A stretch of 64,000 nt of DNA from Oscillospiraceae bacterium (GTDB taxonomy: Bacteria > Bacillota > Clostridia > UMGS1840): positions 1-64,000 of the forward strand of contig SVKD01000011.1 in assembly GCA_015068645.1 (NCBI GenBank). The letters are read 5' to 3'. Below are positions 51,082 to 59,465 of this stretch, one piece after another. Under the pieces are notes generated by a model that saw nothing but the letters and a program-made list of their open reading frames with translations, made no database searches and had not been told where the DNA came from. Both the position numbers and the translations under genes were made by a program. Numbering within the stretch: the stretch's first letter is position 1; each line of letters begins with the position of its first letter.

Positions 51082-51321
51082 ATGGAAGAAAAGAAACTCA
51101 CCTTTGAAGAAGGTATGAAACGGTTGGAAGAAATTGTGGTAGGTTTGGAAAAAGGTTCTGTCAGCTTAGAAGAAGCGATGGAGCTTTTCACCGAAGGAAC
51201 CAAGCTTTCTAAAGACCTTCAAATAATTTTAGACCGCGCAGAATCCAAAATCAAAATGATTACCGAACAAAACGGGCAGGTTACTGCAGTTGATTTTGAA
51301 ACCAAAGAAACGGCGGAATAA
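51082..51321 (+). CDS. xseB: exodeoxyribonuclease VII small subunit
   Basis: The 79-residue helical protein has the family signature TFEEGMKRLEEIVVGLEKGS and LEEAMELFTEG. It starts four bases after xseA and ends three bases before ispA. Confidence 0.95.
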   Translation: MEEKKLTFEEGMKRLEEIVVGLEKGSVSLEEAMELFTEGTKLSKDLQIILDRAESKIKMITEQNGQVTAVDFETKETAE

Positions 51322-51324
51322 GAG

Positions 51325-52212
51325 ATGAAAACAAAGATTCAACAAAAAGCCATGATGGTGGATGAATTTCTGATTGGGGAACTGAAAGATGCTTCCTATC
51401 AGGAAAATCTTCGTGAGATTATGGAATATGCGGTGACAAATGGCGGAAAACGTCTTCGTCCCGTGCTTTTGCTTTCCGCATATGAGTTGTTCTATGAAGA
51501 TGTGACCAAAGCATTGCCTTACGGGGCAGCTCTGGAAATGATTCATTCCTACTCGTTGGTACACGACGATTTACCTTCTATGGATAATGATGATTTAAGA
51601 CGTGGTAAGCCTACCTGCCATAAACAGTTTTCCGAATTTGGGGCAATTTTGGCAGGAGATGCTCTCTTGAATTTAAGTTTCGAAACCATGCTTCGTTATG
51701 CCTGCAATTTTTCACCTGAAACGGCGCTTCGTGCTATGGCATATATTGCCAAAGCATCCGGTGCAAAAGGAATGTGCGCAGGGCAGATGTCGGATATGGA
51801 GCAGTCGGTTACCGATTTTGAAAAACTTACAGAAATGTACCGGGGTAAAACCGGTGCTTTGTTGAAAGCTGCTGTTGTAACAGGAGCAATCTTAGGGGAA
51901 GCGGATGAAAAAATCATCGCGCTTTTGGAACAATATGCTGATCTTGTGGGTCTTATTTTCCAGATTAAAGATGATATGTTGGATGTGGAATCCGATGAAG
52001 CGACCTTGGGGAAACCTGTTTTCAGCGACCAAAAAAATCAAAAAATCACCTTTGTATCCGAATATGGCTTGAATCGATGCCGCGAACTGATGGCAGAATA
52101 TGAAGAAACAGCTTTGTCTTTATTGTCTCAGGTAGAAGCCATTTTGAAAAAAGAAGGAGCTTGTGAGTTCTTAAAAGACCTTACCTCCTATATGGCAAAG
52201 CGTATCAATTAA
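51325..52212 (+). CDS. ispA: polyprenyl (farnesyl/geranylgeranyl) diphosphate synthase
   Basis: This prenyltransferase joins isopentenyl and allylic diphosphates. The two aspartate-rich motifs are present: DDLPSMDNDD and KDDMLDVE, with GGKRLRPVLLL upstream. The residues before the first motif (YSLVHDD) fit a farnesyl or geranyl product. The length of 295 residues is normal. The chain lies in the same operon as dxs, and its stop is followed by the OLE RNA region. Confidence 0.95.
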   Translation: MKTKIQQKAMMVDEFLIGELKDASYQENLREIMEYAVTNGGKRLRPVLLLSAYELFYEDVTKALPYGAALEMIHSYSLVHDDLPSMDNDDLRRGKPTCHKQFSEFGAILAGDALLNLSFETMLRYACNFSPETALRAMAYIAKASGAKGMCAGQMSDMEQSVTDFEKLTEMYRGKTGALLKAAVVTGAILGEADEKIIALLEQYADLVGLIFQIKDDMLDVESDEATLGKPVFSDQKNQKITFVSEYGLNRCRELMAEYEETALSLLSQVEAILKKEGACEFLKDLTSYMAKRIN

Positions 52213-52259
52213 CATCGCGGGAGGATAAGCCGAAATTTTTCAATCAATTTCGTTTTATT

Positions 52260-52890
52260 GATAAATGAATAAAGTATGTGGCGCTGTATTCTAGTCAACT
52301 ATGTGTTATTGAAGGCGGGCCTAAAAATCCGTTAAAGAGCATATCGATGAAGTTCCTTGTGTTTGCTTCGGACGCCCAGTCCGGGGTGGATGCTGGGAGT
52401 TAAGGTTATGGGGCAACCGTTAATGGCATAGCGGTGGAAACCCTATTTCCGTGGAGACCTGTTCTCGTGGTCGGCAATTTCTGCAATTTAATTTTTGTAA
52501 GCTGCCTTCTACGGCTCAGGATTAAACCTGCAATTGCGGTACGATGTTTTTAGTAAAGTGCTGTGTGCAGAGTAGCTTGCCTTGAAGTGAGCAGATGGGG
52601 AGATTCGGATCAGGCTCTTTTTGGGAATGGCCATCTCAATTGAGCTATTGCCGGTTGAAACTCTGCTTGCAAAACAGGATTAAATAACACAAATGTTGTA
52701 TGGGAAAACCACTAGACAGAACAGAGTCGGAGGATTGCAGTGCGGACTCAGTGGCGATCGAGTGCAGCAACATGGCAACTGTGCTGAAAGTGCTTTCAAG
52801 AGAAATCGCTCCATTGGCGACAAGGAGTAGTGCTTTGGGAAATCCAACTCGACCTAAGCCGCAGAATTTACTCCGATTCTGCCACACAAT
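52260..52890 (+). ncRNA. OLE RNA (ornate, large, extremophilic RNA)
   Basis: Between ispA and an OapA-like gene lies a stretch of about 640 bases with no credible reading frame but many local hairpins, for example CGGAC-GCCCA-GTCCG near 52367-52381 and, near the end, GCAGAAT-TTACTCCG-ATTCTGC at 52861-52882. Many purine-rich, G-rich single-stranded segments (GGGGCAACCG, GGTGGAAACCC) are unlike ordinary spacer DNA. Position (xseB-ispA-RNA-oapA-dxs), size (about 610 bases is typical) and the neighbouring membrane protein match OLE RNA, a large structured RNA of anaerobes and extremophiles that binds OapA at the membrane. Identification is by synteny and appearance; end points are estimates within about 30 bases. 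Confidence 0.85.
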
Positions 52891-53177
52891 TTTAAATTGT
52901 AAAATATATTTGTTTACTTGTTTCTTGCGGGCGAATTTTCAGCTATAATGTGCAAAAATGCTCGTGAATACACAAAGTATTCACTGCGCTTTTTTCCCAT
53001 TCTATCAAGAAAATTCTCTCCGCAATAGCCAAGCACCCAATTACATTTTACAATTCGGGCGATTCTTTTATGGGCGGATGTGACATCCAAATCCATTTTA
53101 GCATTTTGAACTCTTTTTCAAAGAAGAATTTTCAACAATCGATCATATAAAAATATTTCCTTGCGATGGAGTAAACT
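52891..53177 (+). other. AT-rich spacer between the OLE RNA and the OapA gene
   Basis: About 285 bases with no gene. It holds the palindrome CAATTTTAAATTG (52886-52898), a hairpin GTGAATAC-ACAAA-GTATTCAC (52963-52983) and, after it, further unexplained sequence. There is no T-run terminator after the RNA, so transcription probably continues into the OapA gene, with the mature RNA released by processing. Confidence 0.5.
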
Positions 53178-53795
53178 ATGGAATCAAACAAAAAAGAAGA
53201 TATTCCCAAACGAAAGAAAAAGCCAATGAATTGGGCAATTAAAGCTACCTTAATCACATTGGTGATTTCCTTTTTCTTAGGAATTTTTGCAGATGTGTTA
53301 TCCAAAAATTTAAATTTTGTTCCTGCATTATTGGTCCTGATTTTTATTATCTTAGTCGGTGTTTTCTCTGATATGGCGGGAATTGCCATTGCCACTGCAG
53401 ATGAAAAAACCTTAAATGCTATGGCAGCCAGAAAAATCCGAGGAGCCAAAGAAGCCTTGCTCTTACTGAGAAATGCAGAGAAGGCAACCAGCATTTTTAA
53501 TGATGTTATCGGTGATATTGCAGGGATCATCAGTGGTGCTACCGGTGCTACCATCGGTGTGTATCTGATTGGAATGTTAAAAGATGTGATTGCTTCCGGT
53601 AATGCACAACTGGGAGAATTATTAACACTCAGTATGCTCTCTGCCCTGATTGCATCTATGACGGTTGGCGGAAAAGCTGCCGGGAAAAAATATGCCATCA
53701 AGAATGCAGAAAAGATCGTATACTTTGTTGGAAAAACGGTGAATTTTTTCAAACGGATTACCAATGTAAGAACCTGGTTCCGAAAGGAACGTTAA
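53178..53795 (+). CDS. oapA: OLE-associated membrane protein A
   Basis: OapA is the membrane partner that holds OLE RNA at the cytoplasmic membrane. The 205-residue protein has a basic N terminus (KRKKKP), four predicted helices (about 21-39, 47-66, 113-133 and 147-165) and the family's DxxxD motif at Asp109/Asp113 (FNDVIGDIAG). The C-terminal end is again basic (FRKER). The RNA gene lies directly upstream and dxs follows by 34 bases, the arrangement known from Bacillus halodurans and Clostridia. Basic ends could contact the RNA. Identification is from recalled family features and synteny. Confidence 0.88.
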   Translation: MESNKKEDIPKRKKKPMNWAIKATLITLVISFFLGIFADVLSKNLNFVPALLVLIFIILVGVFSDMAGIAIATADEKTLNAMAARKIRGAKEALLLLRNAEKATSIFNDVIGDIAGIISGATGATIGVYLIGMLKDVIASGNAQLGELLTLSMLSALIASMTVGGKAAGKKYAIKNAEKIVYFVGKTVNFFKRITNVRTWFRKER

Positions 53796-53829: not shown

Positions 53830-55686
53830 GTGAAACACCAAGCCTTATTTGACAAACTGAATGAATATGAGTATATCAAAAAAATGTCGATTGCCGAGCT
53901 GGAAACTCTTTGTGGCGAAATTCGCAGTTTTTTGATTGATTCAGTGTCTGAAACCGGCGGACATTTAGCATCCAATTTAGGTGCCGTGGAGCTGACGGTG
54001 GCATTGCATCGCACATTTTCGTTTCCTAAAGATAAACTGATTTTTGATGTGGGACATCAAGGATACGTACACAAAATTTTAACAGGACGTGCAAAAAAAT
54101 TCATTCGCCTACGAAAGCTGGGTGGTATTTCCGGCTTCCCGAAAGTTTCGGAAAGTGAATTTGATACCTTCCATTCCGGTCACAGCTCCAACTCCATTTC
54201 GGTGGCACTTGGTTTAAAACGAGGTTTGGAACAGCAGGGGGATGATTCTCACGTAATTGCCATGATTGGAGACGGTGCCCTAACCGGCGGTATGGCAATC
54301 GAAGCGATGAATGACGCCGGCAGAGAAAAAAATAACATTATTGTGATATTAAACGATAATGAAATGAGTATTTCCGAAAATGTGGGCGGGATTGCAAAGC
54401 ATCTTGCCAAAATGAGGACAAGCCCCATTTATCTTCGAACCAAAGGAGGCGTTTCCTCATTCTTTTCCAAAATCCCATGGATTGGGAAGGGCCTTTACAA
54501 ATTTATCTCCACTTTCAAAGCGGCGTTCCGCAATATGATTATCGGAGACAATATTTTTGAAGAACTAGGCTTTTATTATGCGGGTCCTTTTGACGGACAC
54601 AATTTAAAAGGCCTTTGCAAAGTGTTTGAACGCTTAAAAGATATTGATAAACCTATGGTGATTCATGTGATGACCAAAAAAGGGAAGGGATACCTTCCTG
54701 CAGAAGAACGGCCCGATTTGTTCCATGGTGTGAAAGGTTTTGATGTGAAAACCGGGATTCCCACTCCGTCGGCTAAGAACTTTTCCACTGCCTTCGGTGA
54801 AGCTTTGGTGGAACTTGGGGAAACCAACAAAAAAATTGTGGCATTAACTGCTGCAATGCCGGACGGAACAGGACTGACTCCTTTCTGGCAAAAATTCCCC
54901 GATCGTTATTATGATGTTGCCATTGCAGAAGCTCACGGAGCAGGATTGTCGGCAGGACTTGCCATTTCCGGTATGGTGCCCGTGTTTGCGGTGTATTCTT
55001 CGTTTCTGCAACGTGCTTATGACCAACTGATTACCGATGTTTGCGGTATGAATCTGCATTGTGTGTTTGCGGTGGACCGTTCGGGAATTGTTGGGGAAGA
55101 CGGAGAAACCCATCAGGGTGTTTTTGATATTTCTTATCTGACTGCAATGCCTAACATGACAGTCTTCTCTCCCGCAACCTTTGCTGATTTGCGGTTTATG
55201 TTACAAGAAGCAATTGAAGAGTATGATTCTCCTTGTGCCATTCGTTATCATAAGGGCGGTGAGTCCAAAGAAGTTTGTGAGTTGGAACAACCTTATGAAA
55301 GAGGAAAAGCGCAGGTGTTGGTAGAAGGAAAGCATGTTTCCATTCTGTGTGATGGTTCTATGGCGGAAGAAGGTTTAAAAGCAACGAAACTGTTAGCGGA
55401 ACAAGGCGTTTCGGCAGAGCTTATCAATCTGCGTTACATAAAACCGCTGGATTGGGAAACCATCAGCAATTCTTTGAAAAAAACCAAACGGGGTGTTGTG
55501 ATGGAAAATGCTTGTCAGAACGGCGGTATTTATTCGATGCTGACAGGCGCCACTACGGTACCGCTTCTGTCGGTTTCGATTCCCGATTGCTATGTTCCCC
55601 ACGGAAAAGTGGAAGAGTTATTTAAAATGTTTCAGATGGATGGCGAAAGCGTCGCAAAACGAATTATGGAGGAATTTTTCCGTTGA
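53830..55686 (+). CDS. dxs: 1-deoxy-D-xylulose-5-phosphate synthase
   Basis: DXS condenses pyruvate and glyceraldehyde-3-phosphate, the first step of the MEP isoprenoid pathway. SNLGAVELTVALH, GDGALTGGMAIEAMNDAG (thiamine diphosphate motif), VAIAEAHG and CVFAVDRSGIVGEDGETHQG are present. The 618-residue length is normal. The window thus holds the first (dxs) and last (ispH) MEP steps and a prenyltransferase. Confidence 0.97.
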   Translation: MKHQALFDKLNEYEYIKKMSIAELETLCGEIRSFLIDSVSETGGHLASNLGAVELTVALHRTFSFPKDKLIFDVGHQGYVHKILTGRAKKFIRLRKLGGISGFPKVSESEFDTFHSGHSSNSISVALGLKRGLEQQGDDSHVIAMIGDGALTGGMAIEAMNDAGREKNNIIVILNDNEMSISENVGGIAKHLAKMRTSPIYLRTKGGVSSFFSKIPWIGKGLYKFISTFKAAFRNMIIGDNIFEELGFYYAGPFDGHNLKGLCKVFERLKDIDKPMVIHVMTKKGKGYLPAEERPDLFHGVKGFDVKTGIPTPSAKNFSTAFGEALVELGETNKKIVALTAAMPDGTGLTPFWQKFPDRYYDVAIAEAHGAGLSAGLAISGMVPVFAVYSSFLQRAYDQLITDVCGMNLHCVFAVDRSGIVGEDGETHQGVFDISYLTAMPNMTVFSPATFADLRFMLQEAIEEYDSPCAIRYHKGGESKEVCELEQPYERGKAQVLVEGKHVSILCDGSMAEEGLKATKLLAEQGVSAELINLRYIKPLDWETISNSLKKTKRGVVMENACQNGGIYSMLTGATTVPLLSVSIPDCYVPHGKVEELFKMFQMDGESVAKRIMEEFFR

Positions 55687-56480
55687 AAATCAGACTGGAT
55701 GTTGCCTTAACCGAACAGGGACTCGCTCCTTCCCGTGAGAAAGCGAAAGCGCTGATTATGGCAGGGCAGGTATATGTGGACGGGCAAAAAGCATATAAAG
55801 CAGGCGAAATGATTGAAGATACCCAAAAGCTTACCGTGAAGGAAGAGCTTCCCTTTGTGTCCCGTGGTGGATACAAGTTGGACAAAGGTATCAAAGTCTT
55901 CGGCATTGACTTAAAAGATAAAATCTGCGTGGATATTGGCGCCTCTACAGGCGGTTTTACCGACTGTATGCTCCAAAATGGTGCCAAACGTGTGTATGCA
56001 GTAGACGTGGGATACGGTCAGTTGGACTGGAAGTTAAGAAGCGATGAGCGTGTGGTGGTGTTAGAACGCACCAATGCTCGGTATCTAACTGACAGGGAAA
56101 TCCCCGAACGACCTGATTTTTTATCAGCCGATGTGGCTTTCATTTCCTTAAACACCGCATTGTCCACAGCGGTGGATTTATTAAGTGATACCGCAGAACT
56201 GATGGTGTTAATCAAACCTCAGTTTGAAGCAGGTAGAGAATTTGTAGGAAAAAAAGGCGTGGTGAAAGATAAAAAGGTTCATCACGATGTTATCGTAAAA
56301 GTTTGTGAACAGATGATAGCCAAAGGATTAACCTTGCTGGATTTGGATTTTTCTCCCATCAAAGGGCCCGAAGGCAATATTGAATACTTACTATACATGA
56401 CCAAACGGCAGGAAACTTCTATGGATTATCTTGCCAAAGCAAAAGAAATTTCAGAAGCGTCTCACACCACATTGGATTAA
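55683..56480 (+). CDS. tlyA: TlyA-family 2'-O-ribose rRNA methyltransferase
   Basis: The N-terminal 60 residues are an S4 RNA-binding domain (RLDVALTEQGLAPSREKAKA), followed by an FtsJ-type methyltransferase with DIGASTGGFTDCMLQNGA and VDVGYGQL. TlyA proteins methylate 16S and 23S rRNA. The start is a TTG whose last bases overlap the dxs stop (TTGA), with GGAGG about ten bases before it. The length of 265 residues is normal. Confidence 0.92.
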   Translation: MKIRLDVALTEQGLAPSREKAKALIMAGQVYVDGQKAYKAGEMIEDTQKLTVKEELPFVSRGGYKLDKGIKVFGIDLKDKICVDIGASTGGFTDCMLQNGAKRVYAVDVGYGQLDWKLRSDERVVVLERTNARYLTDREIPERPDFLSADVAFISLNTALSTAVDLLSDTAELMVLIKPQFEAGREFVGKKGVVKDKKVHHDVIVKVCEQMIAKGLTLLDLDFSPIKGPEGNIEYLLYMTKRQETSMDYLAKAKEISEASHTTLD

Positions 56481-56492
56481 CAGAGGGATACT

Positions 56493-57323
56493 ATGAACAT
56501 TGGAATTATCATCGGAAAAACGAATATTGATATTTCTGTGATTTCACGGCTTGTTTCCTTATTAAAGGGACAAGATGCCCGTGTTTATTTCCCTTGTGAT
56601 AGCGGAATGGGGGCGGTTGGAACCTGCCTTACTGCAGACGAATTTTATCAGACAGTGGAAATTGTGATTGTATTAGGTGGTGACGGAACCCTGCTTCGTG
56701 TGGCGCAATCAGCTTCTCAACACCAAATTCCTATTTTGGGAATCAATTTTGGAAGAGTTGGCTTGCTTGCCGATTTAGAACAGGACGAAATGGAGTTAGT
56801 CAGCCGTATTTTCACAGGGGATTATACCATTGATGAGCGGATGATGTTAACCGCCACCGTGACCGAGAAAGGTGAAGAGAAATATCGGTTCAACGCACTA
56901 AATGAAATTGCATTATCCCGTGGGAATTTTGCAAAAATGCTGGAAATGGACTTATATATTGATGGTGCAATTTGTACCCCCATTCGGGCAGATGGTTTGA
57001 TTGTATCTACTCCTACCGGCTCCACGGCATATTCATTGTCTGCAGGCGGTGCGGTGATTGACCCCTTGGCAGAAGCTTTTGCCGTGACACCCATTTGTCC
57101 TCACACACTAACGATTCGTCCGATGATTCTGTGTAAAAACAGAACGATTACCATCAAACAAAAAGAGGGGACAGAAAATGTTTCGTTTTTGTCTTATGAC
57201 GGGAATGAAGCGGTAACCATCAATCCTAACATGGAAATCAGTGTGGAATTATCCGGACATACTACCAAGTTGATTCGGATTGTAAACAGAAATTTCTATT
57301 CTGTTTTAAAAGATAAACTCTAA
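56493..57323 (+). CDS. nadK: NAD kinase
   Basis: NadK makes NADP from NAD. GGDGTLLRVA is the diphosphate-binding signature and NEIALSRG with TPTGSTAYSLSAGG complete the family pattern. The 276 residues are normal. It lies 12 bases after tlyA and 13 before argR. Confidence 0.96.
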   Translation: MNIGIIIGKTNIDISVISRLVSLLKGQDARVYFPCDSGMGAVGTCLTADEFYQTVEIVIVLGGDGTLLRVAQSASQHQIPILGINFGRVGLLADLEQDEMELVSRIFTGDYTIDERMMLTATVTEKGEEKYRFNALNEIALSRGNFAKMLEMDLYIDGAICTPIRADGLIVSTPTGSTAYSLSAGGAVIDPLAEAFAVTPICPHTLTIRPMILCKNRTITIKQKEGTENVSFLSYDGNEAVTINPNMEISVELSGHTTKLIRIVNRNFYSVLKDKL

Positions 57324-57336
57324 GAAAGAAGAGAAA

Positions 57337-57789
57337 ATGATGAAGAAAAGAAGACAAGACGATTTGCTGCATTTAATCCGTCAGGAAAAAATCAGAACGC
57401 AAGAAGAACTGACGGAACGCTTGTCCAAAATGGGATATCGGGTGACTCAGGCAACTGTTTCCCGCGATATCAAAGAATTAAAAATTATTAAGACTACCGA
57501 TGAAAACGGCGAAATCTGCTATTTGGCTCCCTCTAAAGATGCTTTGCATCACGCATCGGGAACAGGGTTGGGATTCTTTAAGAATCTGATTCATTCTGTG
57601 TCTTACAGTGTGAATATCATTGTAATTCATACTGCTGCAGGGATGGCGCAGGGCATTGCTGCCACCATCGATCGTATGGGTAGAGCTGATATTTTAGGCA
57701 CCATTGCAGGGGATGACACCATTATGGTAGTTTGCCGCACACCTGAAGAAACAGGAGCAGTGGCTGCTTACTTAAAAACCCATCTCTAA
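57337..57789 (+). CDS. argR: arginine repressor
   Basis: ArgR/AhrC represses arginine synthesis and activates its breakdown. The N-terminal winged helix includes TQATVSRDIKELKIIK, and the C-terminal domain binds arginine with GTIAGDDTIMVVCRT. The 150-residue length is normal. In this operon it is part of the conserved tlyA-nadK-argR-recN order, so its place does not imply local arg genes. Confidence 0.95.
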   Translation: MMKKRRQDDLLHLIRQEKIRTQEELTERLSKMGYRVTQATVSRDIKELKIIKTTDENGEICYLAPSKDALHHASGTGLGFFKNLIHSVSYSVNIIVIHTAAGMAQGIAATIDRMGRADILGTIAGDDTIMVVCRTPEETGAVAAYLKTHL

Positions 57790-57806: not shown

Positions 57807-59465
57807 ATGCTTTCAACTATGCGCATCAAAAACTTAGCGGTTATCCGTGAGATTACATTGCAGTTTGATCGTGGTCTTACGGTGCTGACAGGGGAAACAG
57901 GTGCAGGGAAGTCTATCCTGATGGACGCCTTGCAGGCTATTTTGGGTGCCCGTGTATCGAAAGATTTAATCCGTGCCGATGAAAAATCTGCTTTGGTGGA
58001 AGTTAGTTTTTTCTTTTCGGAAGAAACTGCGCCCGAAGCATTAAAACCTTATCTTTTGGATGATATGATTGTGCTGTCCCGTGAAATTTTTCGTGACGGC
58101 AGAAATATTGTAAAGATAAACGGTTCGTTATCCAACACGGCGGAGCTTCGGGGAATTGCACCCTATTTGATCAGTATTCATTCTCAGAATGACAATCAGA
58201 TTTTGTTTCGTTCGGAAGAGCATTTTCGATTTTTAGACCATTTTGCGGGAGCAAGTGAGTTGTTTTTAGAATATGAATCCTGTTATCACCGTTACCGTGA
58301 AGTTTGTGAAGAAATTTTAAAGGTTGACGGCAAACAAGCGCAGGACAACAGTCGAATTGATTATTTAAAATTTGTCATCCGTGAAATTGAGAATGCCAAT
58401 CTGCAAGCTGAGGAAGAAGACCGTTTAAAAGAAACGAAACTCCTCTTAAAGAATCAAGAGAAGAACAAAGAAAATATCAAAACGGCAACTTATGCCTTAT
58501 ATGAACAAGAAGAAAGTGCTTATCATTTCGTTTCTGTGGCGGCAAAAGCATTAAAGAATACAGATGGTTTTACCGAAATTGCAGAGCGATTGGATGAGCT
58601 TCGATATGAAATTGCAGAACTGTCTGAAAAAATCCGCACCTCGGATGTTATGGCAGAGCTGGAATATACCAATATAGACGATTTAGAAGACCGCTTAGGG
58701 TTAATTTATCAGCTGAAAATGAAATATGGCGGTACCTTCCAATCTATTTTTGATACCTATGAAAAAACCTCCCGTGAGCTTTATGAAATTGAGCATCGGG
58801 AACATCATTTAGAAGAACTAACCAAACAAAAAGAAGAGTGCCTTTCGGAACTTAGAAAAAAATCGCAGAAGCTTACTAAAATCCGCAGTCAATATGCGAA
58901 ACAGTTATCCGAAAAACTGGAATCGGAGCTGCATGATTTAATGATGCCCAATGCCGTATTTTCGGTGGCGTTAAAGGAAGAAAACGATTTTACTGCTCAC
59001 GGAGCCGAAAAGGTGGAATTTTTATTCTCCGCAAACCTTGGTTTGCCTCCCGCACCGCTTGCAAAGATTGCATCGGGCGGTGAAATTTCCCGTGTGAATC
59101 TGGCATTAAAATCCGTGCTTCGGGGAATCGACCCTGCGTGTGCCTTTGTGTTTGATGAAATCGACACAGGAATCAGTGGCCGTGCCGCTCAGAAAACAGG
59201 AGAAAAAATGTGTGCCATCGCCAAAGAATCCCAGGTGCTTTGCGTGACTCATCTTCCCCAAATTGCCGCTATGGCAGACCAGCATTTTTTGGTAAACAAG
59301 GAGGAAGTTTTAAAAGAAACTCTTACCAGCGTTTGTGAAATAACGGGTGAGGAACGGGTAACCGAAATCTCTCGTATGATTGGCGGCGTTGCGGTGACTG
59401 AGATTACCAGACAAAGCGCCGAAGAAATGCTGAAACTTGCAAAACAGTTCAAATTGGAGTGTTAA
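57807..59465 (+). CDS. recN: DNA repair protein RecN
   Basis: RecN is an SMC-like ATPase used in double-strand break repair. Walker A is GETGAGKSILMDALQ, the middle (about 150-370) is coiled coil, and the C terminus has the signature LPPAPLAKIASGGEISRVNL and the Walker B FDEIDTGISG. The 552 residues fit the family. Confidence 0.97.
   Translation: MLSTMRIKNLAVIREITLQFDRGLTVLTGETGAGKSILMDALQAILGARVSKDLIRADEKSALVEVSFFFSEETAPEALKPYLLDDMIVLSREIFRDGRNIVKINGSLSNTAELRGIAPYLISIHSQNDNQILFRSEEHFRFLDHFAGASELFLEYESCYHRYREVCEEILKVDGKQAQDNSRIDYLKFVIREIENANLQAEEEDRLKETKLLLKNQEKNKENIKTATYALYEQEESAYHFVSVAAKALKNTDGFTEIAERLDELRYEIAELSEKIRTSDVMAELEYTNIDDLEDRLGLIYQLKMKYGGTFQSIFDTYEKTSRELYEIEHREHHLEELTKQKEECLSELRKKSQKLTKIRSQYAKQLSEKLESELHDLMMPNAVFSVALKEENDFTAHGAEKVEFLFSANLGLPPAPLAKIASGGEISRVNLALKSVLRGIDPACAFVFDEIDTGISGRAAQKTGEKMCAIAKESQVLCVTHLPQIAAMADQHFLVNKEEVLKETLTSVCEITGEERVTEISRMIGGVAVTEITRQSAEEMLKLAKQFKLEC

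Follow-up and report, generated by a model that had tools for sequence, protein, structure and literature searches.

A full-length OLE RNA beside an OapA-type gene in the isoprenoid–recN cluster of an uncultured clostridial genus

The window, a 64,000-nt stretch of DNA from an Oscillospiraceae bacterium, carries the gene order xseA-xseB-ispA-OLE-oapA-dxs-tlyA-nadK-argR-recN. The host is a ruminant-gut bacterium from a small clostridial genus without cultured members; relatives were assembled from buffalo and deer hindgut. Its genome is a draft of 1.76 Mb in 20 contigs, 97% complete, and is probably a metagenome assembly like those of its relatives. Positions in the window are as follows.

51082–51321, forward strand: xseB, exodeoxyribonuclease VII small subunit, the operon gene upstream (TIGR01280, 66 bits; PF02609)
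51325–52212, forward strand: ispA, farnesyl diphosphate synthase (NF045485, 308.9 bits)
52262–52901, forward strand: OLE RNA, full length, with the conserved part at about 52277–52887 (RF01071, covariation)
52894–53056, forward strand: long hairpin of 163 nt, belonging to a family of dispersed palindromic repeats (pairs, covariation, fold score, other copies)
53178–53795, forward strand: oapA, OLE-associated membrane protein A, CNNM-like with a DVIGD motif (PF01595, invariant residues, fold matches)
53830–55686, forward strand: dxs, 1-deoxy-D-xylulose-5-phosphate synthase (TIGR00204, 691.7 bits)
55683–56480, forward strand: rRNA methyltransferase of the tlyA family (TIGR00478, 277 bits)
56493–57323, forward strand: nadK, NAD kinase (ORF, assigned by sequence reading and gene order only)
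57337–57789, forward strand: argR, arginine repressor (TIGR01529, 148.3 bits)
57807–59465, forward strand: recN (ORF, assigned by sequence reading and gene order only)

Family searches bore out the order ispA-OLE-oapA-dxs-tlyA-argR-recN given in the original prediction, except that the nadK frame between tlyA and argR had not been listed. The same prediction had put the gene-free gap at about 640 bases. That figure is the length of OLE itself, whereas the full gap, measured between the stop of ispA and the start of oapA, is about 965 bases (52213–53177), and the 276 bases left 3' of OLE consist mostly of a second, different structured element (52894–53056). OLE is followed by oapA in all five members of the genus and in one genome of the sister family (G005), and within the genus oapA is followed by dxs. 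In relatives, a small membrane-protein gene that we take to be YuiD/DUF212-like lies just 5' of OLE (L006 776–1225 and the 5' flanks of L035–L038); there is no such gene at window positions 52213–52262, so that ispA adjoins OLE. In genome G004 (L038, about 2651–2998), the usual adjacency of hairpin and oapA is broken by an intervening ORF of some 115 aa, which probably encodes a membrane protein. The argR gene (57337–57789) belongs to the OLE operon of the window; according to the Breaker laboratory, there is unpublished evidence for binding of ArgR to OLE RNA (PMC12054373, PMC12265935).

The gene-free stretch had been predicted to encode OLE, and a Rfam covariance search of the region confirmed this: RF01071 matched over its full length (model positions 1–616 of 616) with 423.7 bits and an E value of 2.8e-122, the gathering score being 50. 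Among structured bacterial RNAs that still lack a known biochemical function, OLE is one of the largest, and members of the class are expected to be abundant RNAs of about 600 nt located at the membrane. The genome of 1.76 Mb holds a single copy, and a Rfam scan of the whole window at gathering scores returned OLE, one 5S rRNA, one tRNA and nothing else. Mapped onto the window, the Rfam structure has 154 alignable pairs, of which 140 are standard and 14 non-standard; of the 249 strongly conserved letters of the consensus, 223 are kept. The main departures of the copy from the consensus are insertions of 19 and 13 nt in two hairpin loops and the absence of a 4-bp hairpin in the 3' part. Three structural elements of the RNA bear on protein binding.

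52343–52352, forward strand: 5' strand of the OLE k-turn (AUC-GAU-GA-AG), the OapC site, which fits the consensus AUCGAUGAAG (by eye, against PMC9723947)
52400–52406, forward strand: 3' strand of the OLE k-turn (UU-AA-GGU), by eye
52787–52836, forward strand: terminal hairpin in the 3' domain of OLE (helices 16 and 17; across the genus, 97.5 and 100% of their cells are paired)

The k-turn (J4a/5 and J5/6) is represented by CGAUGAAG at 52345–52352 and UUAAGG at 52400–52405; possible closing pairs, identified by eye, are C52345–G52404, U52344–G52405 and A52343–U52406. The hairpins of the 3' domain are intact, and the terminal one probably lies in the P13 region bound by OapB, the helix name being our assignment. 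In the P6 element of Halalkalibacterium halodurans OLE, ribosomal protein bS21 recognizes a CCUCCU mimic (PMC12054373). The window lacks this anti-Shine-Dalgarno mimic at the corresponding place (52441–52451), as do ten relatives, giving 11 of 11 OLE sequences; CCUCCU is no defining trait of the class.

Like OLE RNAs of the full-length type, the window copy has long P7–P9-type hairpins, the conserved k-turn sequence and an oapA neighbor within an ispA-dxs-recN cluster. With OLE variants 1 and 2 of the reduced gut lineages TANB77 and RF39 (PMC11332333) it has in common an uncultured gut host with a small genome, but the hairpins that are shortened or lost in those variants are full length here, and the same genome also encodes OapB and a YbxF/OapC candidate. 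The window contains a complete OLE beside OapA, another example of an established RNA class, with 2,822 Bacillota hits in GTDB R214 (PMC11332333), and not a new kind.

The ORF at 53178 had been read as OapA, a four-helix protein with a DxxxD motif. Our results agree with this reading. The protein of 205 aa scores 29.1 bits against the Pfam CNNM family (PF01595), barely above the cut-off of 28.4. Its hydropathy profile is consistent with four helices, of which segments one and two are strong and three and four modest (1.6), and its sole DxxxD motif is DVIGD at residues 109–113. Across nine OLE-adjacent proteins, the motifs NDVxGD (NDVIGD in the window) and TVGGKA show no variation. A structure predicted with AlphaFold2 at middling confidence (mean pLDDT 71) gave CNNM/CorB/CorC chains as all five of its best fold matches in the PDB, although these are weak (best E value 6e-3, TM scores 0.39–0.50), and a search of solved structures with the sequence returned no match up to an E value of 1. 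Together, the CNNM and fold matches indicate that the ORF (53178–53795) fits the protein family expected of OapA. The original prediction held up almost throughout, and neither of the two results it had named as refuting it, a missing covariance-model hit or an OapA-like protein from an unrelated family, was obtained. A protein of the OapA type would be expected to bind OLE RNA in a ratio of at least 2:1. With H. halodurans OapA and its CNNM relatives (MpfA/CorC/CorB) the window protein shares a CNNM-like membrane domain, a basic composition (29 K+R versus 15 D+E) and a gene position 3' of OLE. OapA has been described as distantly related to the CNNM domain found in MpfA (PMC11332333); MpfA combines CNNM, CBS and CorC_HlyC domains, whereas the window protein consists of CNNM only, with neither CBS nor CorC_HlyC. 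A phage origin of OapA was considered and rejected, as no match was found among phage records.

OapB was located by gene position as a protein of 93 aa encoded between map and infA, the best PDB match of which is 7k9b, 'OLE-associated protein B' (E 6.5e-9). This YbzG-type KOW protein was found in all five members of the genus. The Pfam KOW model itself found only two places per genome, frames of 116 and 184 aa that were read as L24 and NusG. The OapC candidate is an L7Ae-like protein encoded between rpoC and rpsL, the ybxF position. It matches YbxF (3v7e) with an E value of 1.2e-8, although archaeal L7Ae proteins outscore YbxF as matches. A second L7Ae protein, encoded between nusA and infB, is of the YlxQ type. 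A gene for bS21 is also present.

No CNNM protein other than OapA was found in the genome. A search for CorC_HlyC proteins (MpfA/CorC) was likewise negative in the five OLE-bearing genomes of the genus, one of which is only 77% complete, whereas one such protein was found in each of G006–G008, which are order-mates without OLE. Since G005 has OLE as well as an MpfA-type protein, the exchange between the two is not strict. An anticorrelation between OLE and MpfA has already been published and the local pattern matches it; as the nine genomes are few and related, this is a consistency check and not new proof.

The hairpin that takes up much of the space between OLE and oapA had not been anticipated. 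Its fold z-score is −7.9, and 19 of its 61 pairs show compensatory changes in five sequences. It lies directly 3' of OLE in all five species (window 52894–53056; L035 1090–1252; L036 2447–2609; L037 2754–2916; L038 2156–2318), and neither the hairpin nor its repeat family (AAAATGCTCG...CTGCGCTTTT) has a match in Rfam. In three species the center and 3' arm are tandemly repeated two or three times with a period of 155–200 (L035 1140–1406, L036 2496–2933, L038 2202–2571) while the 5' arm is single, so that it could pair with alternative 3' arms. We rejected the idea that the hairpin is an OLE-only element, because as many as 34 copies are scattered through the genomes of relatives. A model built on the 107-nt core gave between a few and 34 matches in 9 of 60 sampled members of the class, with some matches representing both strands of a single palindrome, and order-mates carry many copies. 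The orientation of the repeats relative to neighboring genes is mixed, with no clear bias. The element resembles REP/MITE-like repeats in being an intergenic palindrome of about 105 nt that occurs in related Clostridia in as many as 34 copies per genome. It differs from them in that only two positionally kept sites were found in the genus and in that the copy next to OLE has longer arms with compensatory changes. The second kept site is a repeat core in sense orientation just 3' of tpiA in genomes G000, G003 and G004 (L062, which is G000:C14:44342–44447; L064; L069). The repeat tip (query positions 58–100) also matches ten short scaffolds from human faeces that are recorded as UNVERIFIED 'Bacteriophage sp.', including MT837840.1 and MT838915.1, and several of these matches lie near record ends; such phage-collection records may come from bacterial contigs that broke at the repeat.

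The position of this hairpin raises the question whether OLE and oapA are separate transcription units, the hairpin ending or cutting the transcript and oapA having its own start. A covarying 163-nt hairpin 3' of OLE in all five species, the terminator-like 8-bp stem at its tip and the extra ORF between hairpin and oapA in L038 speak for such an arrangement, and we count the possible separation of their expression against our main reading. As a plain terminator the hairpin is a weak candidate, however; its T run does not come directly after a strong stem. Terminator-like sites are near chance frequency (3 versus 2.0 expected) and promoter-like sites at it (4 versus 4.3), and the H. halodurans cluster is one transcript (PMC12265935). 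We regard separate units as rather unlikely. In this genus a captured repeat copy might alternatively have come to serve OLE, whether as a signal for 3' processing or stability or by switching between OLE and oapA mRNA. Compensatory changes can be explained either by selection or by palindrome-correcting template switching, so that covariation alone is no proof of hairpin function; we regard such service to OLE as unlikely, and a role as an OLE processing signal as conjecture.

Two further explanations were considered. The first is that the operon carries only the decayed or non-functional remains of an OLE. Such a remnant might be suspected in a small, possibly reduced genome of 1.76 Mb, given that defective OLE genes have been published for some species that lack OapA (PMC11332333) and that the copy has the non-standard pairs and the missing 4-bp hairpin described above. 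Conservation of the RNA, however, points the other way. OLE occurs in all five genomes of the genus, one copy per genome, and in six of nine order members overall (one of four outside the genus). Across the five species it is 87–94% identical, against 72–79% for oapA. Between the window and L035, its nearest relative and a different species, OLE is 94.4% identical while the third codon positions of oapA agree at only 52.9%. Both partners of a pair have changed in 25 pairs within the genus and in 96 of 154 over 11 sequences. Over the same 11 sequences 88.1% of cells are paired, compared with 39–45% when partners are slid, and none of 500 shuffles reached as high a value. The near-identity of OLE beside far-diverged third positions of oapA, together with the covariation, shows strong selection for sequence and structure. 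As OapA, OapB and the OapC candidate are also intact, a remnant is very improbable. The other explanation, recent horizontal acquisition or an assembly contaminant, draws on the fragmentation of the draft into 20 contigs and its probable metagenomic origin, but is scarcely credible, since OLE followed by oapA recurs in every genus member and in G005, with dxs next within the genus.

We are nearly certain that the locus is an ordinary full-length OLE with OapA in the usual isoprenoid/recN cluster, which would work as the complex outlined below. This holds even after counting against it the absence of CCUCCU, the weak CNNM score and fold matches of OapA, and the presence of both systems in G005. 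That OLE is functional in the host is supported indirectly by purifying selection, covariation and the presence of OapB, the OapC candidate and bS21. In other systems, the membrane placement by OapA, the binding of OapC at the k-turn and of OapB at P13, and RNA dimers have been shown, and loss of the OLE complex leads to stress and Mg2+ phenotypes (PMC9723947, PMC12265935, PMC12286853, PMC12054373). By analogy, we infer that the complex also forms and works in the present host. OLE would most likely be part of the operon transcript with its ends trimmed, as shown in H. halodurans, and would fold into the conserved structure of domains 1 and 2, probably as a dimer. OapA would hold it at the membrane through the palindromic P2 and P4a sites, the k-turn would be loaded with OapC and the 3' domain with OapB. 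The assembled complex may then help the cell to adjust to stress and Mg2+.

The absence of CCUCCU from all the sequences compared suggests that the exact bS21 anti-Shine-Dalgarno mimicry of H. halodurans is not general to OLE. Since OapA is the only CNNM-type membrane protein in the genus, the OLE complex probably covers the exporter role that MpfA/CorC plays in order-mates without OLE. The genus offers five close full-length OLE sequences, accompanied by OapA, OapB and an OapC candidate but not by MpfA, beside MpfA-bearing order-mates without OLE, and so provides a neat natural comparison bearing on the proposal that the OLE complex takes the place of Mg2+ exporters.
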